Positions 21,493 to 39,816 of a stretch of DNA of 64,000 bases are shown here, one piece after another. The notes beneath the pieces were generated by a model, which was not told the origin of the DNA, ran no database searches, and was given only the letters and a program-made list of their open reading frames with translations. Location of the stretch: the NCBI GenBank assembly GCA_025362495.1, contig JANYGI010000080.1, positions 1 to 64,000 of the forward strand, given 5' to 3'. How positions within the stretch are numbered: the stretch's first letter is position 1; every line of letters starts with the position of its first letter. The position numbers and the translations under genes are program-made. The stretch is from Byssovorax sp. (lineage in GTDB: Bacteria > Myxococcota_A > Polyangia > Polyangiales > Polyangiaceae).

Positions 21493-24165
21493 TCACTGCA
21501 AGAAGCCTTGCTTGAGCGCCTCCATCAGCGGGTCTCGCTGGCCGGCCGTCTGACCGGGCCGGTAACCCTGGTTGATGGTCCAGACGATGGTGCCGCCGAG
21601 CCCCTTCTGCTTGACGTAGGCGCCCTTCTCGAGGATCGACTGGGGATCTTCGTAGGACACGAACGTGCACCCCTGCGGCCCGTGCGAGGACGAGAAGCCG
21701 AGGTAAGGAACCCTCGCGGTCGCGTCCCAGTGGTGGCTGGTGGAGCTGTAGTACGAATTCATGATGTTATCGAACGTCATCGTGTTGTCGTCGGAGACGA
21801 TCTGCGAGCCGTTGAGGCTCTGCTTCGGCTGCGAGACGGGCGAAGACCAGCACGAGCCGTAGAAGGCGATACCGATACCGAGCTTGGACGCGGGCACGCC
21901 GGCGGCGAGGTAGGCCTTGACGTTGAGGTCGACCGAGCTCGGCGTCGCCGACGCCTCGCCGTAGAGGGCCGCCGAGTGCCAGCTCTGCCAGCCGCCCCAG
22001 CCGCCCGACATGCTGTAGCTCATCAGGTTGATCTGATCGAAGAGCGGCGCGATGCCGCCGAAGAACGAGCTGACGCTGGCGTTCATCGTCACCCACTGCA
22101 CAGGCACGGTGAGCAGCGTCGACGGCATGGCCGCGCGGATCGCCTGCGCGAGCGCCTTGAAGGCCGGTTGATCGCCCGCCGGGAGCGGCTCCCAGTCGAG
22201 GTCGAACCCGTCGAACCCGTAGTCCTGGGCGAGCTGCTTCAGGTTCTGCACGAACGCCGCGCGGTTCTGAGACGAGGCCGCGCCCACCCACCCCGACTCG
22301 GCCCCTGCGCCGCCCAGCATCACCACGGCCTTCTTGCCGTTCTGATGGGCGAGCTGCACCAGGTTCTTCGCGAAGGCCGGGCCGCCCGTGCCCATGTCGA
22401 ACGTGGTGTTGAGCGTGCCATTGGAGTTCGGCACCACCCGCCCGACGAAGATGTGCGTGAGCCCGCCCCAGTCGATGGCGCTGGGCGGATACAGGTTCTG
22501 CTGGTAGCCGACGTAATAGCCGCTGACCCACTTGCCGCTCGTGCTCCCGCCGCCCGCGCCGCCGGACCCACCGGCCCCGCCGGAGCCCGTCGCCCCGCCC
22601 GAGCCGGTGCTCGCGCCGCCGGCGCCCGTCGTGCTGCCCGAGCCGCTGCCCGTGCCGGTCCCGTCACAGGTCACCACGACGTTGTCAATCAGGAGATTCC
22701 GATCCTGCCCGTTGGCGTAATAGTCGTTGTCGAACACCACCTTGATCTGGTGGGAGCCCGCGGTCGCCGCGAACGGGAACGAGAACGTGGACCAGTTGCC
22801 CGAGGAGACCGTCGCTTGACCGACCTTCACGCCATCCACCGTGACGATCATGTCCGGCCACACGTTGCTGGCGGCCTGCCCCTTGGCAGACACGGTGAGG
22901 TGGGTCGCGCCGGCGACGAACGTGTGGTTCGTCGCGATGTAGCCATTCGACCACAGGTTCCAGCCGCCGGTCGTGCTCCCGCCGGTCGAGTGCGTCATCG
23001 TCTCTGCTTCGTAGGTCGTGGCCGCGCACGCCGTGCCGGCGCTGGCGGTGCCACCACCGCTGACCACGCCGCCGCCGCCTCCCCACGCGAGGTGGGGTAA
23101 CATCATCGTCATCCGCACCTCGTCCGGTCCGCCCGTCGGCTCGAGGCTGCCTCCGCCCGACCACGGCCCGGCGGCCGAGAACGTCCAGCCGAGCCAGACA
23201 TCGCTGTTCGCCTCCAGGTGCGCCAGCATGTCGTCGAGGGCCGCGACGCACGTGGCGCTCGATCCGCCCGAGAACTCGCCCAGGAACCCCCTCTTCCCGC
23301 TGGCCTTGAGCCAGCTCGTGAACGCGGCGAGGCGCTGCGATCCGACGGTGGTGCCGGCGCAAGTCTGGCTCTTGCCCGAGGAGTCGTCGTCGAGGTACTG
23401 ATGAACCTCGTAGGCGTAGTTGTTGCCGGGATCCTCGATCTGGAGCATCGCCTTCGCGTTCGCTGTACCATACCAGCTCTCGCTCCACGCCTGAGCGCCG
23501 TCCCACCCGTTGCCCGGGACCAGGATCAGGTTGGTGGCGCCGGTGGCCCGGATGGCGGCGATGGCCGCGTTCGCCGCGCCCACCCACTGCTCCGTCGACA
23601 TGTCATGAGGCTCGTTCATGACGGCGAACACCACCTTCGGGTTGTTCTTGTAAATGGACGCGAGGCGCCCCCAGAAGTCGGCGAAGTCGGCGGCCGGGAC
23701 AGCGCCCGATCCGATCACCTTGGTGCCGTAGCGCCCGTAGTTGTGCGGATCGAGGATCACCGACGTTCCCCTGGCGAGCAGGCCGTCGGTCGTGGTGGTC
23801 AGGCGGTCGAGCTCCTCCGCATCGAACGCCGCGTTCCGGGTCGGCTGCAGGCGCTCCCAGCGGAACGGGAGCCGGAACGTCGTCATGCCCTTGCTCACGA
23901 AGTAGTCCGCCGAGTCGTAGCCAGCCACGTAGTGCGGGTCGGGGTAGACGTAGTCCGCGCCGTGCTTGCCCGGGAGGGGTCCGTTCCCCGAAGGATCGAT
24001 GGCCAGCTCCACGCTGGCGAGGCTCACGCCGCGATAAGGCAGCGCGCCGGACAGCGACGCTCCCTGCAAGGCGGGCGCGTCGGCGGCGTCCTCGGGCAGC
24101 GGGCCTCCGCAGGCGAGCAGCGAAATGGCGGGCAACACGCCCCAGATCATGCACGATTTCTTCAT
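21493..24165 (-). CDS. Multidomain GH5 - carbohydrate-binding - GH18 lipoprotein (glucanase/chitinase)
   Basis: From the ATG at 24165 the protein has 890 residues. The signal MKKSCMIWGVLPAISLLACG ends in a lipobox at C19, so it should be lipid-anchored. Next comes a GH5 cellulase-type domain (FRLPFRWERLQP, acid/base E185 in AVMNEPHD, nucleophile E297 in GFLGEFSGG). A carbohydrate-binding domain resembling CBM60/xylan-binding types follows (YEAETMTHSTGG, DMIVTVDGVKVGQ), then a Gly/Ser/Thr linker, then GH18 with the catalytic motif FDGFDLDWEPLP. It would attack beta-1,4 glucans/mannans and chitin at or outside the cell surface. An upstream in-frame start at 24285 is rejected because it precedes the signal peptide by 40 unlikely residues. 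GGAGG lies 16 nt before the chosen ATG. Confidence 0.88.
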   Translation of the reverse strand: MKKSCMIWGVLPAISLLACGGPLPEDAADAPALQGASLSGALPYRGVSLASVELAIDPSGNGPLPGKHGADYVYPDPHYVAGYDSADYFVSKGMTTFRLPFRWERLQPTRNAAFDAEELDRLTTTTDGLLARGTSVILDPHNYGRYGTKVIGSGAVPAADFADFWGRLASIYKNNPKVVFAVMNEPHDMSTEQWVGAANAAIAAIRATGATNLILVPGNGWDGAQAWSESWYGTANAKAMLQIEDPGNNYAYEVHQYLDDDSSGKSQTCAGTTVGSQRLAAFTSWLKASGKRGFLGEFSGGSSATCVAALDDMLAHLEANSDVWLGWTFSAAGPWSGGGSLEPTGGPDEVRMTMMLPHLAWGGGGGVVSGGGTASAGTACAATTYEAETMTHSTGGSTTGGWNLWSNGYIATNHTFVAGATHLTVSAKGQAASNVWPDMIVTVDGVKVGQATVSSGNWSTFSFPFAATAGSHQIKVVFDNDYYANGQDRNLLIDNVVVTCDGTGTGSGSGSTTGAGGASTGSGGATGSGGAGGSGGAGGGSTSGKWVSGYYVGYQQNLYPPSAIDWGGLTHIFVGRVVPNSNGTLNTTFDMGTGGPAFAKNLVQLAHQNGKKAVVMLGGAGAESGWVGAASSQNRAAFVQNLKQLAQDYGFDGFDLDWEPLPAGDQPAFKALAQAIRAAMPSTLLTVPVQWVTMNASVSSFFGGIAPLFDQINLMSYSMSGGWGGWQSWHSAALYGEASATPSSVDLNVKAYLAAGVPASKLGIGIAFYGSCWSSPVSQPKQSLNGSQIVSDDNTMTFDNIMNSYYSSTSHHWDATARVPYLGFSSSHGPQGCTFVSYEDPQSILEKGAYVKQKGLGGTIVWTINQGYRPGQTAGQRDPLMEALKQGFLQ

Positions 24166-25052: not shown

Positions 25053-26375
25053 TCAGCGCAGCGCGGGAGGCGGCGGCCCGGCCTCGCCGCGAGCGGTCGC
25101 CGGTCCGGTGGGCCAGGCGCCGCTCCAGGCCGAGACGCGCCCCGCGGCGGCGAGGCTGGTCGCCAGGATCGCCAGCGTCGTGCGCGAGAAGAAGCCCATG
25201 TCACCGTAGATCTGATTGAAGCAGATCGCGGCCTCGGCCACGCTCACCATCGCCACCACGCGGACCAGCGGCGTGGTGGCCGCGCGGTAGGTCCTGGTGT
25301 TCAGATACACGGCCACGGGCACCGGCATCAGGATGCCAATGAAGCCCAGGAACCCCGTGAACGCGAGGATCGCCAGCAGGCTGTTGTGGGGGATGTAGCG
25401 ATACTGGGTGAACTCGCGGGCGCTCAGCGTCGAGTCGGTCTCGATGTACTCCCAGCCCCAGCCGTGGCCGAGAGCGGGCCCCTGAGCGAAGGTGAAGATC
25501 AGCCCCTCGTTCTCGTTGTCGCGGGATTTCGTGGAAGCATCCTTCTCCGAGCTCACCGTGGCGAACGACGCCAGCGGCTTGAAGATGCCTTCGGGCCGGC
25601 CCCAGCCGACGGCCACATACAGCGCGACCACCGGGAGTGTCATGGCCATCCAGCGATTGATCCGGCGCTTTCGCGGGGTGGCGGGGATCATCGCGTAGCC
25701 CACGACGATCGCGGCGACGAGAGACATCCACGCCAGACGTCGGTTGTTGAGCTGGATGGCGAGGACGATGAGCGGCCCCAGGGTGACGAGCAGGGCGCGG
25801 GCGTGCTTCGTCCCGCGCTCGACCGCGCTGGCGAGGAGGATGACCAGCCCCGTGACGAAGAGCACCGAATCGTGGTGCGCCGTCATGTACGAAGGGGCGT
25901 TGTTCCACGCGAGGTCGCGCACGACGAAGAGGTAGAAGCCAGTGGCCATCACCGAGCGATACACGGCCGCGGCGACGATCGCCTTGAGCAGGAGCGCGTG
26001 GTGCTCCGGTGTCCGCATCACGGCCAGGAGGACGAGCGCGAACAGGAGCCCGTTGAGGCAGCAGAACGTCTGGAAGCCGGCCTGCTGCGAGCTCCCCCCG
26101 CGCGCCACGCCCAGCAGGCCCCAGAGCGCGATGCTGGCCATGCTGACGACGATCGCTCGGTCCATCGGCCATGCCCGAAGGCGCGGCCGAGCCCCCTTCC
26201 ATCCGAGGACGAGCAACAACACGATCTGCGCATACGTCCACAAAGGCAGCTTCAGGAACGAGGCGCCGAAGAGCAGCTCCAGCCACCGGAGCGGCGTGAC
26301 CATGAGCCCGGCGTAGGTCTCCGGATCCTCCGAGGTGAGGATCCAGAACAGGATGACGGCGAGGGCTCTGGGCAT
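25053..26375 (-). CDS. O-antigen ligase/polymerase-family membrane protein (Wzy-type)
   Basis: This 440-aa protein is almost entirely membrane-spanning (about 11-12 segments). A large loop of about 80 residues between late segments contains FATVSSEKDASTKSRDNENE and ALGHGWGWEYIETDSTL, then YRYIPHNSLLAILAFTGFLG. The H-N-S after the loop is the usual Wzy_C/O-antigen-ligase signature. In a Wzx/Wzy pathway it polymerises lipid-linked repeat units on the periplasmic face. It is the last gene of the minus-strand exopolysaccharide operon. A 58-aa membrane protein gene ends 12 nt before its start, so they are probably co-transcribed. Polymerase rather than ligase is inferred from the locus. Confidence 0.8.
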   Translation of the reverse strand: MPRALAVILFWILTSEDPETYAGLMVTPLRWLELLFGASFLKLPLWTYAQIVLLLVLGWKGARPRLRAWPMDRAIVVSMASIALWGLLGVARGGSSQQAGFQTFCCLNGLLFALVLLAVMRTPEHHALLLKAIVAAAVYRSVMATGFYLFVVRDLAWNNAPSYMTAHHDSVLFVTGLVILLASAVERGTKHARALLVTLGPLIVLAIQLNNRRLAWMSLVAAIVVGYAMIPATPRKRRINRWMAMTLPVVALYVAVGWGRPEGIFKPLASFATVSSEKDASTKSRDNENEGLIFTFAQGPALGHGWGWEYIETDSTLSAREFTQYRYIPHNSLLAILAFTGFLGFIGILMPVPVAVYLNTRTYRAATTPLVRVVAMVSVAEAAICFNQIYGDMGFFSRTTLAILATSLAAAGRVSAWSGAWPTGPATARGEAGPPPPALR

Positions 26376-26387
26376 GGCGCGGCCAGA

Positions 26388-26564
26388 TCAGTCCTTGAGT
26401 AACGGCAGCACGGCGAGCAGCGAATACGCCCAGACCACGACGAACACGGCGACGCCCAGGCAGGCTCGCCGGACGCCGCGCGCCGGCCTCGCGTCTCGCG
26501 CGGCGAACATGGGAATGACGATCATCGCGCCCATCACCGACATGAGGAGCACCCTCTGAGCCAT
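26388..26564 (-). CDS. Small two-helix membrane protein of the exopolysaccharide operon
   Basis: From the ATG at 26564 the product has 58 residues with two hydrophobic segments (VLLMSVMGAMIVIPMF and ACLGVAVFVVVWAYSLLAVL) separated by an Arg-rich loop. AGGAGGAG lies 3 nt before the ATG. A longer in-frame reading from 26810 would overlap the glycosyltransferase gene and is rejected. It sits between the GT4 gene and the polymerase gene on the same strand. Function is unknown; an accessory to the polymerase is possible but unproven. Confidence 0.65.
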   Translation of the reverse strand: MAQRVLLMSVMGAMIVIPMFAARDARPARGVRRACLGVAVFVVVWAYSLLAVLPLLKD

Positions 26565-27957: not shown

Positions 27958-28776
27958 TCAGCTCGCGCGCGGGTCCGAGCTGCGCCCCGCCGCGCCGCGC
28001 AGATCGCGCAGGAGGATCCAGGCCACCCTCGGATCCTTGAGCAGATAACGGCGCCAGAGCCGACGGGGCTCGCGCGCGAGGCGATAGAGCCACTCGAGCC
28101 CCGCGGCCGAGATCCAGCGCGGCGCGCGCGGCACCGTCCCGGCCAGGAAATCGAGACCGGCGCCGACGCCGACGCACACCGCCGGTCGCACCGACTCCGC
28201 GATCCGGGCCATCACGATCTCCTGCTTGGGGCACCCCAGGGCGACCAGGACGAGATCGGGGCGCGCCGCCGTGAGCCGGTCGCAGAGCTCGTGATGCGTC
28301 GGGGGATCCCGAGCGAGATCGATTGTTCGCGCGTCGATCCCCACGATTTCAAGGCCCGGAGCGTCCACCTTCAGCCGCTCGGCCGCGCGCGCCGCGACGC
28401 CCTCTCCGCCGCCGAGCAGGTAGACGCGCCACCGCTCCCGGCCCGCGCGCTCGAGCAGCGGGCCAATCAGATCCGAGCCGGAGACCTTCTCGCGGAGCGG
28501 CGTACCGAGGAGGCGTGAAGCCCAGACGATCGGCATTCCATCGGCGGTGACGAGGCTCGCGCGCTCGTACGCCGCGCGGAGTCGGACGTCGTCCTCGAGC
28601 AGGACCAGGTGATCCACGTTCGGAGTGCAGACGATTCCGCCCTTCCGCTGCGCCACAAGCTCGGCGACGGCCTCGACCGCCTCGGCCATCGTGACATCAT
28701 CGATGGTCGCGCGGCCGATCCGGATCCGGCGCCGCGCGACCTCACCGCCCACCGAGCTCACCTGCGACGTGCTCAT
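27958..28776 (-). CDS. WecG/TagA/CpsF-family glycosyltransferase (GT26)
   Basis: From the ATG at 28776 the protein has 272 residues. Family motifs are TPNVDHLVLL (51-60), VTADGMPIVW (77-86), VYLLGGGEGVAARAAE, LVALGCPKQEIVMA (GCPKQE at 181-186) and VGVGAGLDFLAGTVPRAPRW. GT26 enzymes add ManNAc, ManNAcA or glucose-type sugars to polyprenyl-linked acceptors at the membrane. GGAGG six nt before the ATG is a strong ribosome site; longer upstream readings are composition shadows. It follows the BY-kinase-like gene by 14 nt, within the exopolysaccharide operon. Confidence 0.9.
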   Translation of the reverse strand: MSTSQVSSVGGEVARRRIRIGRATIDDVTMAEAVEAVAELVAQRKGGIVCTPNVDHLVLLEDDVRLRAAYERASLVTADGMPIVWASRLLGTPLREKVSGSDLIGPLLERAGRERWRVYLLGGGEGVAARAAERLKVDAPGLEIVGIDARTIDLARDPPTHHELCDRLTAARPDLVLVALGCPKQEIVMARIAESVRPAVCVGVGAGLDFLAGTVPRAPRWISAAGLEWLYRLAREPRRLWRRYLLKDPRVAWILLRDLRGAAGRSSDPRAS

Positions 28777-28790
28777 CAATCCTCCTTGCT

Positions 28791-29372
28791 TCAGCGCAAG
28801 ATCAAGCTGCCGACGAAGCGGGCTCTCCCCACCTCCTCGATTGTCCTCTCGGCCTCGGCGATCGAGCTCTCGCCGAGCACGAGGCACAGGATCGCGGCGT
28901 CCGCGGCCTGGGCGAGCGCCAGGCTCGCCGGGCTCTCGAGGACGGGGCCTAGCGCGACGATCATCGGCCCGCGGCTCTCCTTCGGATCGGTCAGACCCCG
29001 GAGACAGGCGCCGAGCTCGGCGAGCCGGATCGCCGTGGCGTCGATGACGCGGATCCGCGATCCCAGGTGACACGAGCCCACGTCGACGAGGGCGCGCGCC
29101 ACCCGGAGCGTCTGGACCGGGCCTCCGGCCGGGATCACCGCGAGCGAGCGCCATTTCCGGCGCTGGGTGGCGAGCCAGACCCGCTGCCACGCGAGGGCCG
29201 AAGATTGAACCGGGGTGGCGTCCTCGTCGGGCGGCGCGTCGTTTCGGATCGCGTCGGGATCGGGCGGCGGAGTCGAGGGCGGGTCCGAGCTGGCGCGCTC
29301 CCCGACCGAAGAGAGCCAGTGATTCCAGAGCGCGGCGGGCCGAGAGCCTCCGCCCGATTCATCTTCTTTCAT
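28791..29372 (-). CDS. BY-kinase/CpsD-like protein lacking the P-loop
   Basis: The 193-aa product starts at 29372, overlapping the preceding GT2 stop by 4 bp (ATGA). A Pro/Asp-rich leader of about 65 residues precedes a domain with the order of strands and spacing of CpsD/Wzc-type ATPases. Where Walker A should be it reads VIPAGGPVQTLRVARALVDV, with no GK[ST]. The Walker A' position reads IRVIDATAIRLAEL, and the Walker B-like strand is GPMIVALGPVLESPASLALA. The end GESSIAEAERTIEEVGRARF and LIL resembles the family end, but there is no Tyr cluster. It probably acts as a non-catalytic partner of the GumC-type co-polymerase rather than as a kinase. Confidence 0.65.
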   Translation of the reverse strand: MKEDESGGGSRPAALWNHWLSSVGERASSDPPSTPPPDPDAIRNDAPPDEDATPVQSSALAWQRVWLATQRRKWRSLAVIPAGGPVQTLRVARALVDVGSCHLGSRIRVIDATAIRLAELGACLRGLTDPKESRGPMIVALGPVLESPASLALAQAADAAILCLVLGESSIAEAERTIEEVGRARFVGSLILR

Positions 29373-30568
29373 GATCGTCCACCGTCCCTGGCCGTGCGTA
29401 TCCATTCCTCGGGTCCGTGATCCGAGCGGCGGAGCCGGAGGCCGATCTTCCACGCGACGTAGACCGGAGCCCAGAGCAGCGTCAGGAGGGCTCTCGGGCC
29501 CTGGCCGGACAGCCAGAGCCCGCGCAGTACGTGGGCAGTCAGGAAGACCATCGCCAGGAGCCAGGGGACAAGCGCCGTCGCCGACCCGCCGAGCGCCACG
29601 TGATGAACGAGGGCCGCCGCCGCCCCGACGGCCGTCGTGAGCGCGAGCGAGCTCAGCGGAGGGACGAGCAGATCCATCGCGAGATCGAGCCGGATCGCGT
29701 CGCGCCGCGCCACGCCCTCGCGGATCAGCCGCGGCACGTGCGCCCGGGCGATCGCCGCCCGGCCACCCTCCCACCGTCGCCGCTGCGTCGCCGCCGCGGG
29801 CCCGCGAGGGGCCATGTCGCCGAGCACCTCGGCCTCGGGCACATAGACGACGCGATACCCTGCCTCGGCGAGCTTGATACCGTATTCGACGTCCTCCACG
29901 ATCGAGAAAGCGTCGGAGGGGACGCGGCGGAGCACGTCGCGCGTGAAGCCCATCCCGTTGCCGCGGAGCCCGGTCGAGAGGCCCAATCGCTCGCGACCGA
30001 GCGAGCGCAGCCCGTGGAAGATCGCCAGCGCCAGCACCATCAGCCGGGCTCGCCACGAGGCCTCGGGATCGCGGACTCCGTAGCTCGCCTGGACGGCGCC
30101 CGCGCCGGCGACGAACCGCGCCGCGAAGGCGTGAAGGAGCTGCGGAGACACCGTGGTGTCCGCGTCGATGACCACCACGGCGTCGGCTACGGCGTCGGCC
30201 TCGATCCGCGCGAACGCGTGGGCCAGCGCGTAGCCCTTGCCGCGGCGCCGCGGATCGCGTCGCTCGAGCACGACGGTGCCGGCGCCCGCGGCGACCTGCG
30301 CGGTCGCGTCTGCGCAGTTGTCCGCCACCACGAGGATCCGGTAGCGATCCTCCGGGTAATCGAGCGCGCGGAGGCTGGCTATCGTGGCGGCGATCCCCTG
30401 CTCCTCGTCGTGGGCGGGGACGACGATGTCGAATCGCAACGTGGCCTCGCGCGGGGGGTCCCCGAGCTTCCCCGGCCGCGCGGCGAGGGCCAGCACGAAG
30501 AGGTACGTCGCGCAGGCGAGCCCCGGCAGCCCGAGGATCGTGAGGACGAGAGCGCCGAGCGCGATCAT
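29369..30568 (-). CDS. Membrane glycosyltransferase family 2
   Basis: This 399-aa protein has an N-terminal membrane segment (ALVLTILGLPGLACATYLF), then a GT-A domain with FDIVVPAHDEEQGI, ILVVADNCADATAQ, the D-x-D segment VVVIDADTTV, a VEDVEYGIKLAEAGYRV acceptor loop and the QRRRWEGGR motif. Three or so C-terminal membrane segments follow (LDLLVPPLSSLALTTAVG, ALVPWLLAMVFLTAHVLRGL). It is like bacterial processive or polyprenyl-linked GT2 enzymes. It would add a sugar to the growing repeat unit at the inner membrane. The ATG at 30568 lies inside the last codons of a 23-codon ORF, and its own stop overlaps the next gene, so expression is tightly coupled. Confidence 0.88.
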   Translation of the reverse strand: MIALGALVLTILGLPGLACATYLFVLALAARPGKLGDPPREATLRFDIVVPAHDEEQGIAATIASLRALDYPEDRYRILVVADNCADATAQVAAGAGTVVLERRDPRRRGKGYALAHAFARIEADAVADAVVVIDADTTVSPQLLHAFAARFVAGAGAVQASYGVRDPEASWRARLMVLALAIFHGLRSLGRERLGLSTGLRGNGMGFTRDVLRRVPSDAFSIVEDVEYGIKLAEAGYRVVYVPEAEVLGDMAPRGPAAATQRRRWEGGRAAIARAHVPRLIREGVARRDAIRLDLAMDLLVPPLSSLALTTAVGAAAALVHHVALGGSATALVPWLLAMVFLTAHVLRGLWLSGQGPRALLTLLWAPVYVAWKIGLRLRRSDHGPEEWIRTARDGGRS

Positions 30569-30636
30569 CGCCGATCTCCCGCGCCGCGACGCGCGTTGCG
30601 GAGAACCGCCGTGCGCCCCATCACCTCGTCGCTCAT
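30565..30636 (-). CDS. 23-codon ORF coupling the GumC and GT2 genes
   Basis: The ATG at 30636 overlaps the GumC stop by 4 bp (ATGA), and its TGA at 30567-30565 overlaps the GT2 start by 4 bp (ATGA). GGAGGTG ends 8 nt before the ATG, the best ribosome site in this part of the operon. The peptide starts MSDEVMGRTAVLRNARRGAG and ends in Arg residues; it is basic, with no membrane segment. The SD of the GT2 gene (GGAG) lies inside it. It could be a real micropeptide or only a translational coupler carrying ribosomes across the gap. I know of no family for it. Confidence 0.5.
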   Translation of the reverse strand: MSDEVMGRTAVLRNARRGAGDRR

Positions 30637-32141
30637 GGCGTCTTCACCTCCGCGAGCAGCGGAATCGGGAGCCGCTCGACCTGCCAGACCTCGAGGAATC
30701 GATTGCTCGCGAAGTCCTTCGCGGCGGCGGCCGCGAACGCGGAGAGCAGGCCGAGCACGAGCCCGCCGAGGACGATGAGCGGGATGCTGGGCTTGAGCGG
30801 CTTCTTCGGGATCTCGGCCGGAGCGACGATGGCATAGCGGTACTTGAAGGCCGCCCGAGCGGTGTTGATCTCGAGCCGCGCCGAGTCGATGCGATCGCGC
30901 AGATCCTCGTATTTCTGCACTGCCGCGAGGAGCCGGGCCCGGACCGAGACCAGCTCCGGCGAGTCGTCGCGGGGGGCGACGGGCTCCGGCGCCACCGCCG
31001 CCGCCGCCTCGTCACGAGACGCGAGGAAGGGCCCGAGCGTCGCAGGTGGCGTGTCCCCGAGCTTGCCCTCGCCCGGAGAGAACTGCTTGACCTGGGCGAG
31101 CAGCGCGCCCTCTTCCCGCTTCAGCGCCGTGAGCTCGGGCGGCTCGACGCTGGCTTGACGGATCTTCTCCTCGAGGGCGATCACCGAGGGGTGGGCCGAA
31201 GCGTAGGTGAGCCGGAGCGTCGCGAGCTGCCCTTTGAGGTCGACGACGCGCCGCTGCCAGGGATCCTCGATGGCCTGGATGGCTGTCCGCTTCTGGGCGA
31301 GATCGACGGCGATCGTCGCGCCGGTGTCGGAGGCGGGCTTCGGGCCGCGATCCGGCGTTGCCCGCCGCGGCGCGCCGAAGGGCCGAGTCGGTGTCAGCGC
31401 GGGGGCCGGAGGAGCGGTGAGCTGCATCTTCTGGGCGTTGGCGAGGCCGGCGTCGATCGCCTCGCGCTGGCGGGCCGCCTCGTCTTCGAGGATGGCAATC
31501 GTCTCGGTGATGGCCGAGGTCTCGGTCGCGCTGCGCTCCGTGAAGAAGTTGCGCTCGGCGCACTGCACGAGCTCGTGGGCCACCAGCGGATCGTGCCACG
31601 ACACTGCGATGGATATCGTCGTGTCGTCGGCCTGCACCGTGATCCGCTTCTCCAGCAGGCCAATCAACGCCAGCATCCGGTCCTCGTCCGACACCGGGCC
31701 GAAGACCGCGCGCGAGGCGGCGTCGAGGAGCTGCGACATCGGGGATCGGCCCACGCTCCACCGCTCCTCCAGGTGGGTCTCCCGGATGATCGCCACGAGG
31801 TTGTCGCGGCGCAGGATGGTCTCGCTCGTGCCCCGCGTGGGGACGTCCCAGTCGGCGGGCAGAGGGCGCCTCGGGTTGCCGAGCAGCGGAATCACCACGT
31901 TGCGCTGGACGAGGATCCTGGTGGTCGCGACGTAGACGCGCGGGGCGCACACCGCGACCGTCGCCGTCAGCAGCAAGCTCAGCGCGAGCACCAGGCTAGC
32001 GAGGCCCGGCCGCCGCCTCGGCGCGCGCAGCACGAAGCGCGCTATCGCCGCGGCGCGCGCGTAGTCGACGCCCTCCGAGCCCTCGGCGTCGGTGAGGTCG
32101 GGGCTCGGAGGCGTGGAGAGCGGCGGTGCCGGAGAGGCCAT
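30633..32141 (-). CDS. GumC/Wzz-type polysaccharide co-polymerase
   Basis: This 502-aa protein has an inner-membrane helix near the N-terminus (LASLVLALSLLLTATVAVCA) and another near the C-terminus (LIVLGGLVLGLLSAFAAAAA). A long periplasmic region between them has coiled-coil character (ITETIAILEDEAARQREAID; VRARLLAAVQKYEDLRDRID). The segment PAEIPKKPLKPS before the last helix is the usual Wzz/GumC proline motif. It controls chain length and couples polymerisation to export. No kinase domain follows, unlike Wzc; the P-loop-less BY-kinase-like gene downstream is the likely partner. The start at ATG 32141 is preferred over GTG 32147 because GGAG lies 5 nt before it. It begins 2 nt after the receiver gene stop. 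Confidence 0.88.
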   Translation of the reverse strand: MASPAPPLSTPPSPDLTDAEGSEGVDYARAAAIARFVLRAPRRRPGLASLVLALSLLLTATVAVCAPRVYVATTRILVQRNVVIPLLGNPRRPLPADWDVPTRGTSETILRRDNLVAIIRETHLEERWSVGRSPMSQLLDAASRAVFGPVSDEDRMLALIGLLEKRITVQADDTTISIAVSWHDPLVAHELVQCAERNFFTERSATETSAITETIAILEDEAARQREAIDAGLANAQKMQLTAPPAPALTPTRPFGAPRRATPDRGPKPASDTGATIAVDLAQKRTAIQAIEDPWQRRVVDLKGQLATLRLTYASAHPSVIALEEKIRQASVEPPELTALKREEGALLAQVKQFSPGEGKLGDTPPATLGPFLASRDEAAAAVAPEPVAPRDDSPELVSVRARLLAAVQKYEDLRDRIDSARLEINTARAAFKYRYAIVAPAEIPKKPLKPSIPLIVLGGLVLGLLSAFAAAAAKDFASNRFLEVWQVERLPIPLLAEVKTP

Positions 32142-32143
32142 GT

Positions 32144-32581
32144 TCACTCCAGGGCGAGGCCTTCATCGAGGTGGCGAGGGATCGCGGCGGCGCGGGCCTG
32201 GGGGTCCACCGCGAGCATGGCACGCACGTGCCGGGCGAGGAGCGCGAGCGTGAACGGCTGCGCGAGGAAGGCGTTCGCGCCCGCCTCCTCGGCGTAGGCG
32301 ATGATCTCCGGAGAGTGCCTGTCGCTGATGACGAGGATCTGGACCTGATCGAGCCCTCGGTCCGTCCGGATCTGCTCGCAGAGATCGTACCCGGAGTCGC
32401 GAGGAAGGTTGAGGCTGACGCAGACGATCGCCGGGCGACTCCGCGCGATGCTGGCGATCGCGGCCCGGACGTCCACCGCGACGTCGACGGCGACTGCGAC
32501 TCCCAGCGCCTTCCTCAGGCCGGCCGTGAACACCGGATCGTCGTGCACGACGAGGACACGTCTCTCACCGCTGTGGATCAT
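32144..32581 (-). CDS. Degenerate receiver (no phosphoacceptor Asp) leading the exopolysaccharide operon
   Basis: From the ATG at 32581 the product has 145 residues with receiver fold order: VLVVHDDPVF (D14, D15), AIVCVSLNLPRDSGYDL, ILVISDRHS, and ANAFLAQPFTLALL. In place of the phosphoacceptor Asp before L-x-L-P is Ser56, and in place of the invariant Lys before P-F is Gln108. Conventional phosphorylation is therefore unlikely. It may act as a constitutive or ligand-controlled partner. In Myxococcus xanthus a receiver gene (epsW) belongs to the eps locus, so a receiver here has precedent. A 46-residue longer in-frame reading from 32719 is rejected as not receiver-like. The gene ends 2 nt before the GumC start. 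Confidence 0.75.
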   Translation of the reverse strand: MIHSGERRVLVVHDDPVFTAGLRKALGVAVAVDVAVDVRAAIASIARSRPAIVCVSLNLPRDSGYDLCEQIRTDRGLDQVQILVISDRHSPEIIAYAEEAGANAFLAQPFTLALLARHVRAMLAVDPQARAAAIPRHLDEGLALE

Positions 32582-32751
32582 ATCGATTCTCCTCGGAAAA
32601 GCCTGTCGGGGGGCGGCCCCTCGAGCCGTGGCGCCCGCGCGCCGCGCGCGAGCCGCACGGACCGTGACGGCGTGGAACGGGTAAGCTCGCCCCGGCCAGG
32701 TTCCTGCGTGGGCGACCATGCCCCGCTGTCCGAACCGGAAACTCCGGGACG

Positions 32752-32764
32752 AGATAGACTATCT
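32752..32764. promoter_or_regulatory. 13-bp perfect dyad upstream of the receiver-led operon
   Basis: AGATAG-A-CTATCT is a perfect inverted repeat with a 1-nt centre, in an A/T-richer patch about 170 nt upstream of the receiver gene start at 32581. Its size and place suit a dimeric regulator site. There is no other support. Confidence 0.3.
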
Positions 32765-32877
32765 ATCGCACTCGCCATGTGTAGCAGCTCTGCTCGGTCG
32801 AGCCACGAGGTGCGTGACTGCGACACTCCAACCCCGGAAAGAACATCAGGATGCTTCCCCACCCGCGCTCGTGCCGC

Positions 32878-33717
32878 TCAGGTGATCGACGTCGAGCGCC
32901 CCCGCGCCCGCGCCTTCACGGCGGGGAGCGCCGCCTCGACGATCGAGTCCGGCGGTATCGAGCGGAGGACGAGACAACCGGGCATGATCTTGGATCGCGC
33001 GCCGACGGTGATCGGACCGAGGATGGTGGCGCCGGGGCCGATCACGACGTCGTCCTCGATGGTGGGGCCGCCGCTCTTCCGCGTGTCGGGGTGGGTCCCG
33101 AGGCCGAGCGTGACGTTGTGCGAGAGGACGACGCCGCTCCCGACCCGGGCCGAGCCCGTGACCGCCATGCCCATCCCGTGCACGATCATCACGCCGGGCG
33201 CGAGATCGGCTTCCCAGTGGACATCCGCCCCGTAGGCGTGGCGGATGAACCGCGAGACGACCTTGGCGGCGAGAGGCACCTTCGCGACGGAAAAGACGCG
33301 CATGATCCGGTAGGCGGCCATCATCTGGAGTCCTACCTTCTCGACGAGAGCGCCGGAGTACGCCTCGGGTCGATCGGGCTTGCCCGCGTACTTGACCCCC
33401 TGGCGGTGGACGAGCGCATGATCGGCGCGGACGGCGCCGGCGAGCCGAGATGCCGTATCCCGCAAGCGTCGGAGCCCGGCCAGAACCCCTCGCGCCTCGA
33501 CCGGGGACGCGCCGGGGGAGCCGCGTCCTGCGCTGGACGGAACTCGGAGGACCGCGGGGAGAATCTGCAGCTCGGGAGCGATAAACCGGTTTTCCACGAG
33601 TGGTGTAGATAGCAGCTCCACCGATCCTGACCACCTGGAAACCGGCGACAAATCACCGGACGATAGCGGCAAATTCGGCCCGGAACAGCGGGTGCGCTGC
33701 GCGTCCGTTGGAGTCAT
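32878..33717 (-). CDS. Serine acetyltransferase-like hexapeptide acyltransferase
   Basis: The 279-aa product from the ATG at 33717 has a left-handed beta-helix C-terminal half typical of serine O-acetyltransferases: DLAPGVMIVHGMGMAVTGSA, VGSGVVLSHNVTLGLGTHP, then GPTIEDDVVIGPGATILGP and ITVGARSKIMPGCLVLRSIP. The N-terminal roughly 100 residues are not recognisable and the start is uncertain; GTG at 33741 is an alternative. In exopolysaccharide loci such enzymes usually acetylate a sugar rather than make O-acetylserine. The M. xanthus eps locus also contains a SAT-like gene. A second hexapeptide enzyme lies at 34747 on the other strand. The gene is divergent from the glycosyltransferase at 33850. 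Confidence 0.75.
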   Translation of the reverse strand: MTPTDAQRTRCSGPNLPLSSGDLSPVSRWSGSVELLSTPLVENRFIAPELQILPAVLRVPSSAGRGSPGASPVEARGVLAGLRRLRDTASRLAGAVRADHALVHRQGVKYAGKPDRPEAYSGALVEKVGLQMMAAYRIMRVFSVAKVPLAAKVVSRFIRHAYGADVHWEADLAPGVMIVHGMGMAVTGSARVGSGVVLSHNVTLGLGTHPDTRKSGGPTIEDDVVIGPGATILGPITVGARSKIMPGCLVLRSIPPDSIVEAALPAVKARARGRSTSIT

Positions 33718-33849
33718 TCGAGCCGGCTCCGGGCGGCGCACGCTCGGCCCCGGTCGGCTGGACTACGTGGTTCAGAGTGCTACTCAGTTTCATTGATCCA
33801 CGGGGAGAGCCCCGGTGGCACGCTGGCTCCACAACGTCCCAGAGGCTCG

Positions 33850-34725
33850 ATGTTCATCCACGCAAGCGCCCCGCGTCCTGCTCACGCGCTCATCACCCCG
33901 AGCCACGCCCCGGACTTCGCGCGCTGCTGCGTGCTGGTCGAGAGCGTGCGGCGCCACGCAGCCCCGGGCATCGACCACTACCTCGTCGTCGACCGCCGAG
34001 ACGAGCGGCTCTTCGCGGTCCTGCGGGGACCGCAAACCCACATCGTCGTCAAGCAAGACATCCTCCCGTGGTGGCTCCATCAGCTACCGCTCCGCCCCAA
34101 GTGGTGGGTCAGCTTGAAGGGGTTACCGGTCCGCGGGTGGATCATCCAGCAGATCGTCAAGCTCTCCGTCGACTCCATCGCCCCCGCGGACGCGTGCATT
34201 TTCATCGACTCGGACACCATCCTCACCACGAGCTTCGATCCCGGCAAAGCCGAGCGGGACGGCCGAGTGCCGATGTTCCGCGAGATCCTGCCGACCGAGC
34301 TGCCTTACAACACGCGCTGGCACGCGGCGGCCGGGCGGCTGCTCGGCCTCCCCGCCGCGCCGAGCTGCCGCACCAGCTACGTGACTCTCCCGCTCACCTG
34401 GCTTCGCGCCAACGTGATCAAGCTGCAACGGCACATCGAGCAGACGACGGGGCGAGGCTGGGTGGAGAGCCTCTGCGGCCTCGACACCATGAGCGAGTGC
34501 GTGCTTTACGGCCGGTTCTGCGAGGAGATCCTGGGCGACGCGTCAGGCCACTACTTCCACGATACGGTCCAGATGCTGAGCTACTGGGGCACGACGCCGC
34601 TCGACGAGCGCGGCCTGCGCACGCTGCGCGACAGCCTGCGCTCCGAGCACCTCTGCGCCATGGTCAACGCCCGATCGAACACGCCGGTGCGCGACATTCG
34701 CCGCGCGTTCGACCTCGAGGCCTGA
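33850..34725 (+). CDS. DUF6492-type putative glycosyltransferase
   Basis: The 291-aa protein begins MFIHASAPRPAHALITPSHA. It has a GT-A-like opening (ALITPSHAPDFARCCVLVES), the conserved-looking block FVVKQDILPWW (here VVKQDILPWWLHQLP), a D-x-D-type motif in CIFIDSDTILTTSF and a C-terminal VNARSNTPV. This order fits the DUF6492 family, which is found in polysaccharide loci and looks like nucleotide-sugar transferases. Donor and acceptor are unknown. It is the first of three plus-strand genes (33850-36290) inside the otherwise minus-strand locus. An upstream in-frame ATG at 33793 is not supported by a ribosome site. Confidence 0.65.
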   Translation: MFIHASAPRPAHALITPSHAPDFARCCVLVESVRRHAAPGIDHYLVVDRRDERLFAVLRGPQTHIVVKQDILPWWLHQLPLRPKWWVSLKGLPVRGWIIQQIVKLSVDSIAPADACIFIDSDTILTTSFDPGKAERDGRVPMFREILPTELPYNTRWHAAAGRLLGLPAAPSCRTSYVTLPLTWLRANVIKLQRHIEQTTGRGWVESLCGLDTMSECVLYGRFCEEILGDASGHYFHDTVQMLSYWGTTPLDERGLRTLRDSLRSEHLCAMVNARSNTPVRDIRRAFDLEA

Positions 34726-34746
34726 CGCGCGCGCCCCGGCCAATCC

Positions 34747-35283
34747 ATGCTGACCACGATCCTCCGCGACGCGGCCGAGCTCGCTCGCGTCGCCCGACCT
34801 CAGGGCGCCTCGGGGCGCCCCACCCTGCGCGACACGCTCCTCCACGACGGCTTCGCGGTGCTCGCTCTCACGCGCGTGCGCGAGCTCGCGCGGCGGTGGC
34901 GCGTGCCGGGGGTCAATCGCTTCCTTCGCCTGGCGCAGACGGCGCTCTACGGCATCGAGATTGGCAAGGACGTCCAGCTCGGCGAGGGCGTGTGCTTCGT
35001 GCACACGATTGGCACCGTCATCGGCGGGGACGCCCGGCTCGGCGCCCGCGTGCGCCTGCTCGGCAACGTGACCATCGGCACGGCCAAGGACAACGGCTAT
35101 CCCGTGATCGGCGACGACGTCACCATCGGATCGGGGGCGCGCGTCCTCGGGCCCGTGACCATCGGGCGCGGCGCCACCATCGGGGCCAACGCCGTGGTGT
35201 TGACGGACATCCCGGATTTCGCCGTGGCGGTCGGCGTCCCGGCCGTCGTGCGCAGTCCGGTGCGCGCGCGAGGTGTGGAATGA
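34747..35283 (+). CDS. Serine acetyltransferase-like hexapeptide acyltransferase
   Basis: This 178-aa product consists of a short helical start ([18 protein letters not shown]) and hexapeptide repeats ([34 protein letters not shown], then [20 protein letters not shown] and [11 protein letters not shown]), as in CysE/NodL-type acyltransferases. The length is near that of the shorter serine acetyltransferase-like enzymes in capsule loci. It probably O-acetylates a sugar of the exopolysaccharide or its precursor. It lies 21 nt after the DUF6492 gene, and its stop overlaps the next gene by 4 bp, so the three plus-strand genes form one operon. Confidence 0.85.
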
Positions 35284-36290
35284 GTGCCGACCTCCCGGTC
35301 AGCGTCGTCGTGGCCACGCACGATCGGTGCGCGCTCCTCCTCGAGACGCTGCGCGGGCTCGCGCGGCAGACGCTCCCCGCCAATCAGTTCGCGGTCATCG
35401 TCGTCGACGACGGCTCCGAGCCTCCGGTGCGGCCGGAGCTCGAGCGGCTCGATCTGCCCTATCCGCTCACGATCCTGGAGCAGGCCAATCGGGGCGCGGC
35501 GGCGGCGCGGCATCATGGCATCCTCCACGCCCGGGGCGAGATCATCGTCATCGTCGACGACGACATGGGCATCCCTCCCGATTTCCTCGCCGAGCACCTC
35601 GCCGCGCACGCCGGGGGCGCCACGCTGGTGCTCGGTCGGATCCAGGACGAGGGAGAGGCCATGGCGCGCAAACCGATCTTCGAGCGGATGCACGCCGCCC
35701 TCCTCGACAGGCAGTGGGAGGCGTTCCGGTCCGGGCGCGAGCGGCCGCGCGGCGTCCACACCTGCACCGGGAACGTCTCGTTCCGACTCCGCGACTACCT
35801 CGCTGTCGGCGGCTTCGATCTCCAGCTCGCGCGCTCCGAGGACCGCGATCTCGGCGTCCGCCTCGAGCGCGCCGGCGCGCGGATCGCGTTCGCCGACGCC
35901 GCGCGGACCATCCACCGCAGCGACGTCGCCGATCTCCAGGTGTGGATGGGCCGCAACTTCCGCTACGGCGGGTGCGATCTGCGGATCGCGCGGAAGCACC
36001 CCGACCTGGAGAGCGCGGATCCCTGGCGCTTCTTCTTCCTGATTCACCCCCTCTCGCGCGTGCTCGTGGCCGCCACGCTGATTGCTCCCTCGGCCGGCGC
36101 GCGGATCGCAAGCCTGGCAATCCGCGCGGCGATGGCGCTCGACGCCGCCGGCGCCGAGCGCGCCGCCGTGGCGGGAGCGACGGTGAGTTATGCACTCGAG
36201 TACTTCCGCGGCATGCGCAGCGAGGCCGGCTCGCTCCGGGCAACGCTGCGCGGCCTCGGTGGGTATCTGGCCAAGCGCGCTCCTCAGTAG
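35280..36290 (+). CDS. Glycosyltransferase family 2
   Basis: The 336-aa protein starts [20 protein letters not shown] with the ATG overlapping the acyltransferase stop (ATGA). GT-A motifs are [22 protein letters not shown], the D-x-D segment [23 protein letters not shown] and the acceptor acid in [20 protein letters not shown]. The C-terminal part ([20 protein letters not shown]) is amphipathic to hydrophobic and may touch the membrane. It adds a sugar to a lipid-linked intermediate; specificity is unknown. Its 3' end overlaps the end of the convergent GNAT gene by 7 bp. Confidence 0.88.
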
Positions 36291-37162
36291 TTGAGGAGGA
36301 CGCACTCCGAATACAGGCCGTCGATGTCCTCCGGCTGCACACCATCCTTGGAGCGGAAGGCGCCCAGGTACGCGCCGCCGGGTCGCGCGAAAGAATGCCA
36401 GGGGGCGTGGCCGCGGAGGACCCGTTCGTCGACGACCATCGCGACACAGCGAAAGCCCACCGCGGCGGCGAGGGCTACCCGATCGAGGTGACGGCGAAAG
36501 ACCTCGGGCGCGCTCACGTGATGGACTCGCGCAACGGGCAGGCGCACGCCCCTTCCAGCGTGCTTGAGGCTCCGGTTGAGCATCACGTAACAGTCGCCGA
36601 TCGCCGATCGCACGAGGAGATGCCGGTGGTGCGGGAGGCGGTGATCGCGGCAGATCTTCCGCGCCTCGCCCTCGAGGCCGGCCTCGACTTCGGCCAGATC
36701 GGTGACGAGCTCGCACCGCTCGAGCAGCCGGCGTGGATCGAGGATCGGGAGCACGATTCGCTGTGACTGACCGAGGGTCTGGAACCCGAGCTTCTTGCAC
36801 ATCCGGAGGACCTCGGGGGTCGGGCTGAGCGCCGTGAGGGTGACTCCCTCCAGGGCGACGACCTTCGCCAGCAGCATCAGGCTCCGGCCGCGATACTCGT
36901 TCTTCACGATCCAGTTCGACATGTTGCAGAGCCGGTGCGTCCGCCCGCGAAACGTCCGCTCGCTGAACGTGAGGGCGATTGTCCCGACGATGGTGCCGTC
37001 GTCGACGAGCACGTAGCCGAAGCGCCCGTCCTGGCAGCCGCTGTGGTCGATGAAGAGCTGTCGCCAGTCGGCCTCGGTCAAATACGGGGCGTCGAACCCG
37101 AGCAGGAGCGGATACACCTGGTCGAAATCCTCGGCCGTGGTCTCGCGGATCGTCACCATCAC
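36284..37162 (-). CDS. GNAT-family acetyltransferase-like protein
   Basis: This 292-aa protein has an N-terminal GNAT-like fold: IRETTAEDFDQVYPLLLGFD, FGYVLVDDGTIVGTIALTFS, CNMSNWIVKNEYRGRSLMLL (the R-G-x-S takes the place of Q/R-x-x-G-x-G/A) and VTLTALSPTPEVLRMCKKLG, ending FQTLG. The C-terminal half (RHHLLVRSAIGDCYVMLNRS-like, ending [10 protein letters not shown]-like) looks like a second degenerate acyltransferase lobe. It could acylate an amino sugar. It lies 25 nt after the PIG-L deacetylase gene on the same strand, so a deacetylate-then-acylate pair is plausible but unproven. Confidence 0.6.
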   Translation of the reverse strand: MMVTIRETTAEDFDQVYPLLLGFDAPYLTEADWRQLFIDHSGCQDGRFGYVLVDDGTIVGTIALTFSERTFRGRTHRLCNMSNWIVKNEYRGRSLMLLAKVVALEGVTLTALSPTPEVLRMCKKLGFQTLGQSQRIVLPILDPRRLLERCELVTDLAEVEAGLEGEARKICRDHRLPHHRHLLVRSAIGDCYVMLNRSLKHAGRGVRLPVARVHHVSAPEVFRRHLDRVALAAAVGFRCVAMVVDERVLRGHAPWHSFARPGGAYLGAFRSKDGVQPEDIDGLYSECVLLNY

Positions 37163-37187
37163 TGGGTCCTTTGCGTCGGGTGCTGGT

Positions 37188-37934
37188 TCAAACGATGGAC
37201 AGGGTTCGCGCGAGCTCGATGAAGCGTGGCGCGGCGCAGGCGAAGAGCCCTTCCGCGTGCGTTACCCCGACCTTCAAGCCGCGAAAGCGGTTGAGCCCGA
37301 GCGCCGCGTCGGCGTACGGCATGTGCGCGAGCTGCGATCGGTAGCACGCGATCGCGCGCCGCTTCTCGTCGACGACCTCGGAGATGTCGATGGCCGTGTT
37401 GGGCCAGAGGGTCGACCACGTCTCGTAACACCAGACCTCGCCGGAGAAGCCCGACCTCGCGATAGCGCCGGCGGTGCTCGCGGAGACCGCCTGGTGATCG
37501 CGGTGGTGATCGCCTGGAAAAGGGCAGATCACGACGTCGGGGCGCAGCTCGCGGAGCGCGTCGGTGAGTACGCCCGCGATGGCGTCCTCGTGGAGCGACG
37601 TCTGGCCGTCGGGGAAGCCGAGGAAGCGGTGCCGGTGGCCAAGCACCTTGCCTGCGGCCTCCGCCTCGGATTTGCGCGCCCACGTCCCGTCCGCGTCGAC
37701 GGGTTCGTTGGTCACGATGAGCGCGGTCACCTCGCCGCCGGCGCGACGCTGCAGCGCCAGTGTGCCGCCGACGGCGATCGACTCGTCGTCGGCGTGCGGC
37801 GCGACGACCACGACTCGCTGCCTCTGGATCGTCCGGAGGCGCACCGGCATGCGGTGCGTGATGCGATGAATGCGATGAAGGAGCCGAATCGCGGTGCGCT
37901 CGAGCAAGGAATCTAGGATCCGAGGTAGCGTCAT
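37188..37934 (-). CDS. PIG-L family N-acetylglucosaminyl deacetylase
   Basis: The 248-aa protein has the LmbE/PIG-L signature VVVVAPHADDESIAVGG (H-x-D-D-E zinc motif) and the second zinc-ligand segment CPFPGDHHRDHQAVS. The first 40 residues are basic, with no clear signal peptide. Members remove acetyl groups from GlcNAc-containing glycolipids or small thiol precursors. Here, next to sugar acyltransferase-like genes in an exopolysaccharide locus, a role in deacetylating an amino sugar of the repeat unit or precursor is likely. It is 88 nt downstream of the GH44 gene and 25 nt upstream of the GNAT gene. Confidence 0.88.
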   Translation of the reverse strand: MTLPRILDSLLERTAIRLLHRIHRITHRMPVRLRTIQRQRVVVVAPHADDESIAVGGTLALQRRAGGEVTALIVTNEPVDADGTWARKSEAEAAGKVLGHRHRFLGFPDGQTSLHEDAIAGVLTDALRELRPDVVICPFPGDHHRDHQAVSASTAGAIARSGFSGEVWCYETWSTLWPNTAIDISEVVDEKRRAIACYRSQLAHMPYADAALGLNRFRGLKVGVTHAEGLFACAAPRFIELARTLSIV

Positions 37935-38022
37935 GGGTGCCTGTCTTGAGCCGGGCTCGGTGAGGATCCATCAGCGAACCTCGACCGGGCTGACGGCGCG
38001 CGTCGCGTGGTCTGGAGCGAAG

Positions 38023-39816
38023 CTAGGGAGACGGCGTGAGCTCGACGTCGAGCACGTTGATCGAATAGGGCGGCAGATCGGCCGTGACGGCGCCCGCTGA
38101 AGTCGAGGCTCGGCCCTTCACGAAGCCAGTCGGCGCTCCGGCGAACGTGTACTCCGCGATCTTGCCCGCGGCGCCGCAGGTATGGAGATCGACCACGGCG
38201 TCCCGCGCCGTATCGGGTGACAGGTTGAGGACCACGACGACGAGGCGCCGGCCATCGTCGGCGCGCGAGGCGAAGATCGAGGTGTCGTCGACCGTGGAGG
38301 TGGGCACCGACGTATCCAGAAAGCGGCCTCCGTGATCGTCGAAATCGCGGAACGCGCGGAAGGCCCAGTAGACCGACGAGCCCGGACGAGGGTAGGTGAA
38401 GAAGAACGCCGACGTCACCCCGTTCTGGCCGAAGCGGCCGAGCGCTTCGGCCGTCGCCAGCCCTCCGCTCATGTGCGACTCGCCACCGAAGTTCCACTCA
38501 CCGATCGAGATCCCGCGCCCCGGGTAACCCTCGGCGATCCACTGCTTCATGCGCGGGAGGAGCATTATCTTCTCCTTGATCCACGACTCGTCCATGTAGT
38601 CGGGATCCCACAGGCCACGGGTGGAGCGGATCCGCCGCGCGGCCACGTCGGGGCTCCCGTCGTCGTTGTGGATCCCCTCGCCGGCCGGGTAGAAATGCAG
38701 ATCGAGGACGTCGAGCACCCGCACCCCGGTCTTCTGCTCGTGCTCGCGGAGCTTGCGCAGATAGTGAGAGACGAGTGGCACGTTGCCGTGCTCGCGCCTG
38801 TCGACGTGCACCCCCGGGATCCCCGTCATGTCCCGGGCCGAGTACACGTAATTGAGCCAGCCCCACTCCGCCGGGCCGGCGATCACCGCGTCGGGATCCG
38901 CGGCGCGGATCGCCGCTCCGTACTCGATGGTACGGGTCACCAGCTCGTCGTAGCCGAGCGGCTCGGGGTGCACGTCACGGTGCGTGGAGCTCCACAGGTT
39001 GGGCTCGTTGTCGAGGATGTACTGCTGCACGCGGCGGCCGCCGGCGCGGAGATCCCCGGCGCGGATCGCCTCGATCCAGCGCTTGATGAACGCCGGTGAC
39101 GCCGGCGCGCTGGTGCGCGAGGGCGGCGGCGACGGGATCGGCTTGCCCCCCCGGAGCCCGTTGCCGGCGTCGCGCTTCCACTGATCCACGCCGTCCTGCG
39201 CGCCCGCCGACGCGACGGGAAACGAGTACGAGGTCCTGTCCTTGGCGACCCAGCCGATCATCGGAATCGTCAGCGCCGACTTCACCCCGCGCGCGCGGTT
39301 CTCGTCGAGGAAGACATCGTACGAAAAATGCGGGCCGTTGCCGTAGTCGACGTTCTCCCAGAACCAGTCCTGGGCCGTGCTCCAGGCGTTGCCGAGCTCC
39401 CAGTTGTAGCGCGAGCTCGCGTTCCCACCCCACCTCCGGATCGTCGGCCCCAGGTTCCACTGGTGGGCATGATCGGTGGGGTGCTGGAAGTCGTAGGCGA
39501 TACCGTAGATCAACGGGCTTATCGGGGTGCTCTTCGCCCGGCAATTCACGGCGAGCGCCGCGGGCTGCCGGCGCGGCGAGGGCTCCCCCGGCAGAGCGTC
39601 GGCGACGGCCGCGTCGTCCGGACGTGCGACAGGCTCCCTCGCGGGCACCTCCGGCACCGCGCTCGAGCTGCCTTGCACCCCGCGATCGCGCGCGCAAGAC
39701 GCCGAGAGCGCGAGCAACGCCGCCCCCGCGAGGCGATGAGGGGTGGTTGGACGAAACGATCGCCGGAGATCGAGCATGGGAGCAAGGAGCCTTTCCGCTG
39801 GAGAGCGGGTGATCAT
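38023..39816 (-). CDS. Glycoside hydrolase family 44-like enzyme in the exopolysaccharide locus
   Basis: The 597-aa protein has an N-terminal signal (RLAGAALLALSASCARD, possibly a lipoprotein with C41) and a low-complexity linker to about residue 90. The catalytic domain then reads PLIYGIAYDF, LGPTIRRWGGNASSRYNWE, acid/base E271 in ILDNEPNLW and nucleophile E440 in SIGEWNFGGE. This is the GH44 pattern (endo-beta-1,4-glucanase, xyloglucanase or mannanase activity). The C-terminal beta domain ends PYSINVLDVELTP. GGAGAG before the ATG at 39816 favours this start over 39777. A secreted hydrolase within the locus probably trims or releases the exopolysaccharide; M. xanthus eps also includes a hydrolase gene (epsB). 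Confidence 0.82.
   Translation of the reverse strand: MITRSPAERLLAPMLDLRRSFRPTTPHRLAGAALLALSASCARDRGVQGSSSAVPEVPAREPVARPDDAAVADALPGEPSPRRQPAALAVNCRAKSTPISPLIYGIAYDFQHPTDHAHQWNLGPTIRRWGGNASSRYNWELGNAWSTAQDWFWENVDYGNGPHFSYDVFLDENRARGVKSALTIPMIGWVAKDRTSYSFPVASAGAQDGVDQWKRDAGNGLRGGKPIPSPPPSRTSAPASPAFIKRWIEAIRAGDLRAGGRRVQQYILDNEPNLWSSTHRDVHPEPLGYDELVTRTIEYGAAIRAADPDAVIAGPAEWGWLNYVYSARDMTGIPGVHVDRREHGNVPLVSHYLRKLREHEQKTGVRVLDVLDLHFYPAGEGIHNDDGSPDVAARRIRSTRGLWDPDYMDESWIKEKIMLLPRMKQWIAEGYPGRGISIGEWNFGGESHMSGGLATAEALGRFGQNGVTSAFFFTYPRPGSSVYWAFRAFRDFDDHGGRFLDTSVPTSTVDDTSIFASRADDGRRLVVVVLNLSPDTARDAVVDLHTCGAAGKIAEYTFAGAPTGFVKGRASTSAGAVTADLPPYSINVLDVELTPSP

Follow-up and report, generated by a model that had tools for sequence, protein, structure and literature searches.

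A 23-codon open reading frame between the epsV-like and epsU-like genes of a Byssovorax sp. genome as a possible ribosome relay

In the genome of a Byssovorax sp., a 23-codon open reading frame (ORF) lies between the genes of an EpsV-like polysaccharide co-polymerase and an EpsU-like glycosyltransferase, which raises the question of whether this ORF encodes a working peptide, hands ribosomes from one gene to the next, or is open by accident. The window analyzed here is the 64,000-nucleotide stretch at positions 1 to 64,000 of contig JANYGI010000080.1. An initial annotation had reported that the ORF overlaps both neighbors by 4 bp as ATGA and carries the strongest ribosome-binding site in this part of the operon, and both observations were confirmed (Table 1). 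The Shine-Dalgarno (SD) sequence of the small ORF is complementary to the anti-SD over 8 nucleotides, the longest match among nine operon starts (7 for the WecG-type transferase gene, 6 for p58, and 4 to 5 for the others).

Table 1. Positions of the small ORF, its signals and its neighboring genes in the window
Feature	Position	Strand	Basis or remark
23-codon ORF, ATG to TGA, MSDEVMGRTAVLRNARRGAGDRR followed by the stop	30565..30636	-	sequence read directly
ATGA, start of small ORF over EpsV stop	30633..30636	-	ATG 30636-30634, EpsV TGA 30635-30633
ATGA, end of small ORF over EpsU start	30565..30568	-	TGA 30567-30565, EpsU (GT2) ATG 30568-30566
SD of small ORF, GGAGGTGA	30644..30651	-	7 nt from ATG, within the last EpsV codons (A-E-V-K)
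Weak SD of EpsU, GGGAG	30576..30580	-	mostly paired in predicted fold
Predicted hairpin within small ORF, sequestering the EpsU SD	30573..30607	-	RNA fold prediction
EpsV-like polysaccharide co-polymerase, 504 aa (GumC of the initial annotation)	30633..32147	-	NF041864, E 5.7e-77
EpsU-like GT2 glycosyltransferase, 399 aa (GT2 of the initial annotation)	29369..30568	-	NF041865, E 7.7e-144; PF13641
193-aa ORF, 4-bp overlap with GT2	28791..29372	-	homologue after EpsU in L140, L141 and L039
Response-regulator receiver protein, 145-aa call	32144..32581	-	4-bp overlap with EpsV start

The EpsV-like protein scored 259.3 bits against NF041864, under the curated cut-off of 800 bits, and the EpsU-like protein scored 479.5 bits over its full length against NF041865, under the curated cut-off of 700 bits; they are therefore designated EpsV-like and EpsU-like only. 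The genes are arranged in the order response regulator, EpsV-like, small ORF, EpsU-like, 193-aa protein, WecG-type and GT1-type transferases, 58-aa ORF (p58) and Wzy, and this run, of EPS type, resembles the myxobacterial EPS locus (PMC7484181, PMC12004946). No sigma-70-type promoter was found in 28000-38000, and there was no Rfam match. The genome (10.8 Mb, 240 contigs) is the sole member of its genus among the genomes compared. The 193-aa protein had no Pfam or NCBIfam match, and its position may suit a counterpart of EcpK, the BY pseudokinase partner of EpsV. The Wzy gene (25053-26375) adjoins p58 (the pair occupies 25053-26564, minus strand). Homologues of p58 recur beside Wzy in locus L146, and in L144 and L041 they precede the response regulator or EpsV; p58 is therefore conserved as a small protein of the locus. 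The polysaccharide genes are flanked by glycoside hydrolases, one with GH5 and GH18 in a single chain together with CBM60 (21493-24165, minus strand) and one of GH44 (38023-39657, minus strand).

The region following EpsV was compared among relatives, the nearest available proteins of which are about 44% (EpsV) and 55% (EpsU) identical, with no close relative among them. EpsV is directly followed by EpsU in L141 (G033), L039 (Myxococcus MY1) and L140 (G050). The small ORF is absent from all three, so that the open-frame conservation expected of a small-protein gene was seen in 0 of 3 same-order relatives. In L141 and L039, EpsV and EpsU overlap by ATGA, so that EpsU itself begins with the ATG at the EpsV stop; in L140 the two genes are 4 nt apart and EpsU starts with GTG. 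Between EpsV and EpsU lie a Wzy gene in L144 and acyltransferase and Wzy genes in L142 and L143, with a 4-bp overlap at each junction. The gene overlapping the EpsV stop by 4 bp is EpsU in L104/L141 and L039, an acyltransferase gene in L108/L142 and L116/L143, the Wzy gene in L114/L144, and a 148-aa ORF in L041. Since the overlapping genes differ among relatives, the start at the EpsV stop is a recurrent, inherited module that launches the next gene. Many more distant EpsV homologues have no start at the EpsV stop, and searching the whole phylum for EpsU brought no further locus.

The SD before this start is also found in part of the relatives. GGAGGT and a CCATGAGCG start are located in L144 as in the window, the Wzy gene of L144 starting with ATGAGCG, and L039 has AGGTGA at the place of the small-ORF SD. 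The SD match before the start at the EpsV stop was 8 in the window, 6 in L144, 6 in L039, 5 in L141 (distant) and 4 in L116, with none in L108. The SD is partly dictated by the conserved E-V-K codons at the EpsV end. The initial annotation had pointed to same-order relatives as the place to look for the ATG, the SD and the open frame. In 2 of these 3 relatives the EpsV stop carries an ATG preceded by an SD-like motif, which is well spaced in only one of them; in both, this ATG starts the GT2 gene and opens no small ORF.

It had further been proposed that the exact tiling of the ORF between its neighbors suggests selection. Genes were called in 1.8 of the 10.8 Mb of the same genome by a home-made caller with approximate start calls, which yielded 1458 genes, 882 same-strand pairs and 499 same-strand gaps of 12-250 nt. 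A 4-bp overlap was found in 136 of the 882 pairs. ATG ORFs with a 4-bp overlap at both ends numbered 5, where shuffling of the gaps predicts 4.9 (n = 499), and when all start codons and overlaps of 1 or 4 bp were admitted, tiled ORFs occurred in about 26 gaps against 26.2 expected (n = 499). Because the observed counts match the shuffled expectation, exact tiling is no evidence of selection, and this part of the proposal is not supported. As a caution for similar cases, chance gives about one doubly 4-bp-tiled mini-ORF per hundred gaps in a GC-rich genome like this. It is uncommon for a strong SD to lie directly before an ATGA stop: an SD of at least 7 just before the gene end was found in 2 of 614 non-overlapping pairs, both with ATGA (2/32 with ATGA versus 0/582 without). 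The window junction was the only case of an ATGA stop with an 8-nt SD among the 614 pairs sampled. The other non-overlapping end with ATGA and a strong SD (L204:14891, G000:C14) has a 7-nt SD, and a short ORF starts at its ATG; where neighboring genes do not overlap, an ATGA end with a strong SD may mark an unannotated or former start.

The structure around the EpsU start was predicted by RNA folding. The z score of the predicted fold was -1.99 over 97 nt and -0.86 over 141 nt. The predicted opening energy of the EpsU start was 26.5 kcal/mol, compared with a mean of 15.5 (standard deviation 5.1) for 882 starts, which places it in the top 2.8%, and in about the top 5% among GC-matched starts; 7% of shuffles of the upstream stretch were as extreme. 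The sequestration of the EpsU SD is thus predicted only, and is modest. In Myxococcus xanthus, loss of epsV strongly lowers the EpsU protein (PMC12004946); such a drop would be expected under coupling and is compatible with it, and other causes are possible.

A ribosome relay is plausible because the strongest SD is on the short ORF and the weak EpsU SD lies in predicted RNA structure. We favor, with a probability of about 0.5, the interpretation that the 23-codon ORF is a leader cistron peculiar to this lineage and not conserved, whose role, if it has one, is that of a ribosome relay. The start at the EpsV stop, with its SD in the last EpsV codons, would be the inherited module that normally launches the next gene; in this lineage, with 64 nt between EpsV and EpsU, it would open a short frame ending on the EpsU start. 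Ribosomes ending EpsV, or loading on the strong SD, would translate the 23 codons and melt the hairpin over the weak EpsU SD, and after termination at ATGA the same or a following ribosome would start EpsU, the peptide being presumably a by-product. On this interpretation the small ORF would be translated, and EpsU expression would depend on that translation. The translational coupling suggested in the initial annotation accordingly remains plausible on the strong SD, the start at the EpsV stop, the weak EpsU SD predicted to be sequestered and the recurrent 4-bp coupling at the EpsV stop, but no longer on the tiling. A real relay would add to the natural examples of short cistrons that are maintained for passing ribosomes on and not for their peptides, and would show how tiled operons tolerate gene gain or loss without uncoupling.

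A tested precedent is known in E. coli: ORF27, a 27-aa ORF ending over the iraD start, is translationally coupled to iraD, and the proposal is that it opens a structure sequestering the SD (PMC5574718). The small ORF likewise has a short frame with its own well-placed SD and a stop over the downstream start, and the downstream SD may, by prediction, also lie in a sequestering structure. However, ORF27 belongs to a 5' leader and is under CsrA repression, whereas the window ORF lies between operon genes with its start over the upstream stop; moreover, the coupling was tested in E. coli, whereas for the window ORF it is putative. The ATGA overlaps at both junctions are like those of ATGA/TGATG termination-reinitiation pairs (Huber et al. 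2019, PMC6728339), except that here one of the cistrons is as short as 23 codons. Leaders of the bicistronic design (Mutalik et al. 2013), as far as they are described in PMC5995908, similarly combine a strong first SD with a short leader ORF containing the second SD, but are synthetic and 5'-terminal, whereas the window ORF is natural and mid-operon and its relay role is putative; the description used here mentions no overlap of stop and start. The epsV-epsU pair of M. xanthus (MXAN_7421-7422; PMC7484181, PMC12004946) has the same order of a co-polymerase gene and a GT2 gene and the EpsU decrease described above; the Myxococcus MY1 record (L039), compared in place of the M. xanthus junction, differs in its direct ATGA overlap without a small ORF. 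As it is not conserved and its tiling is at chance level, the small ORF is largely ordinary.

The relay interpretation was weighed against readings in which the ORF has another role or none. The ORF may have no function at all, a 64-nt gap in GC-rich DNA being open from ATGA to ATGA by luck while EpsU uses its own SD. This is possible, though short of an even chance: double tiling is as frequent as chance predicts, which also counts against the relay, the ORF is absent from relatives, and its codon log-odds of -0.15 was reached or exceeded by 21% of stop-free 22-codon gap windows (about the 79th percentile). An accident accounts poorly for an ATGA with an 8-nt SD that is unique among the sampled pairs, and for an EpsU start that is unusually sequestered in prediction. 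These two features, the restriction of strong SDs at non-overlapping gene ends to ATGA, the 4-bp overlap at the EpsV stop in relatives (with the same GGAGGT and start in L144), the M. xanthus observation and the iraD precedent argue for the relay; the possible origin of the SD in the E-V-K codons, the modest sequestration and the distance of the nearest proteins weaken it. A functional basic micropeptide working with the polysaccharide assembly complex, the other role put forward by the initial annotation, is very improbable. It would have its own strong SD and ATG and a place within the operon, but it is conserved in no relative with the same order, has no NCBIfam family match and draws no support from codon use: its log-odds lies between those of genes and gaps, at the 9th percentile of gene N-termini, and GC by codon position is 0.82/0.64/0.77 versus about 0.7/0.5/0.9 for genes here. 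DNA matches elsewhere are short and GC-rich, with none at an epsV-epsU junction among the matches listed, and a high arginine content tends to follow from GC-rich DNA. It is likewise hardly credible that a frameshift or an error in the assembly conceals additional sequence at the N-terminus of GT2 or at the C-terminus of EpsV; a one-base change would join the ORF to GT2, but EpsV ends, and GT2 starts, where they do in the relatives by alignment, and no relative carries 22 additional residues on GT2.

The origin of the 64 nt is a separate matter. The ORF could be the rump of a lost gene, a former whole Wzy or acyltransferase gene deleted to its start and end with both ATGA overlaps kept, which is compatible with the relay but in itself unlikely. 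In its favor, L144, L142 and L143 hold whole genes in this slot, the L144 Wzy gene has the same SD and the ATGAGCG start, and the EpsV tree places the window beside L144 (support 87/90). However, L140, which falls outside this pair (98/98) as its sister, has EpsV and EpsU adjacent, so that a plain insertion is no costlier and no cheaper in steps than the deletion of a former Wzy or acyltransferase gene. In addition, the halves of the ORF showed no similarity to Wzy or acyltransferase ends beyond the boundary (alignment, shuffle p 0.11-0.63), and the window still has another Wzy. The EpsU tree was unresolved around the window, so that insertion is not distinguishable from deletion. That a gene slot of the tiled operon was cut to start and stop, leaving a natural bicistronic-design leader solely for keeping the ribosome flow from EpsV to EpsU, is more doubtful still. 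Duplication or a mobile origin of the 64 nt was rejected, since the window and genome held no convincing copy, only short GC-rich matches. At L112 (G024:C290), the last approximately 20 EpsV-like codons and the stop appear to be tandemly duplicated directly downstream.
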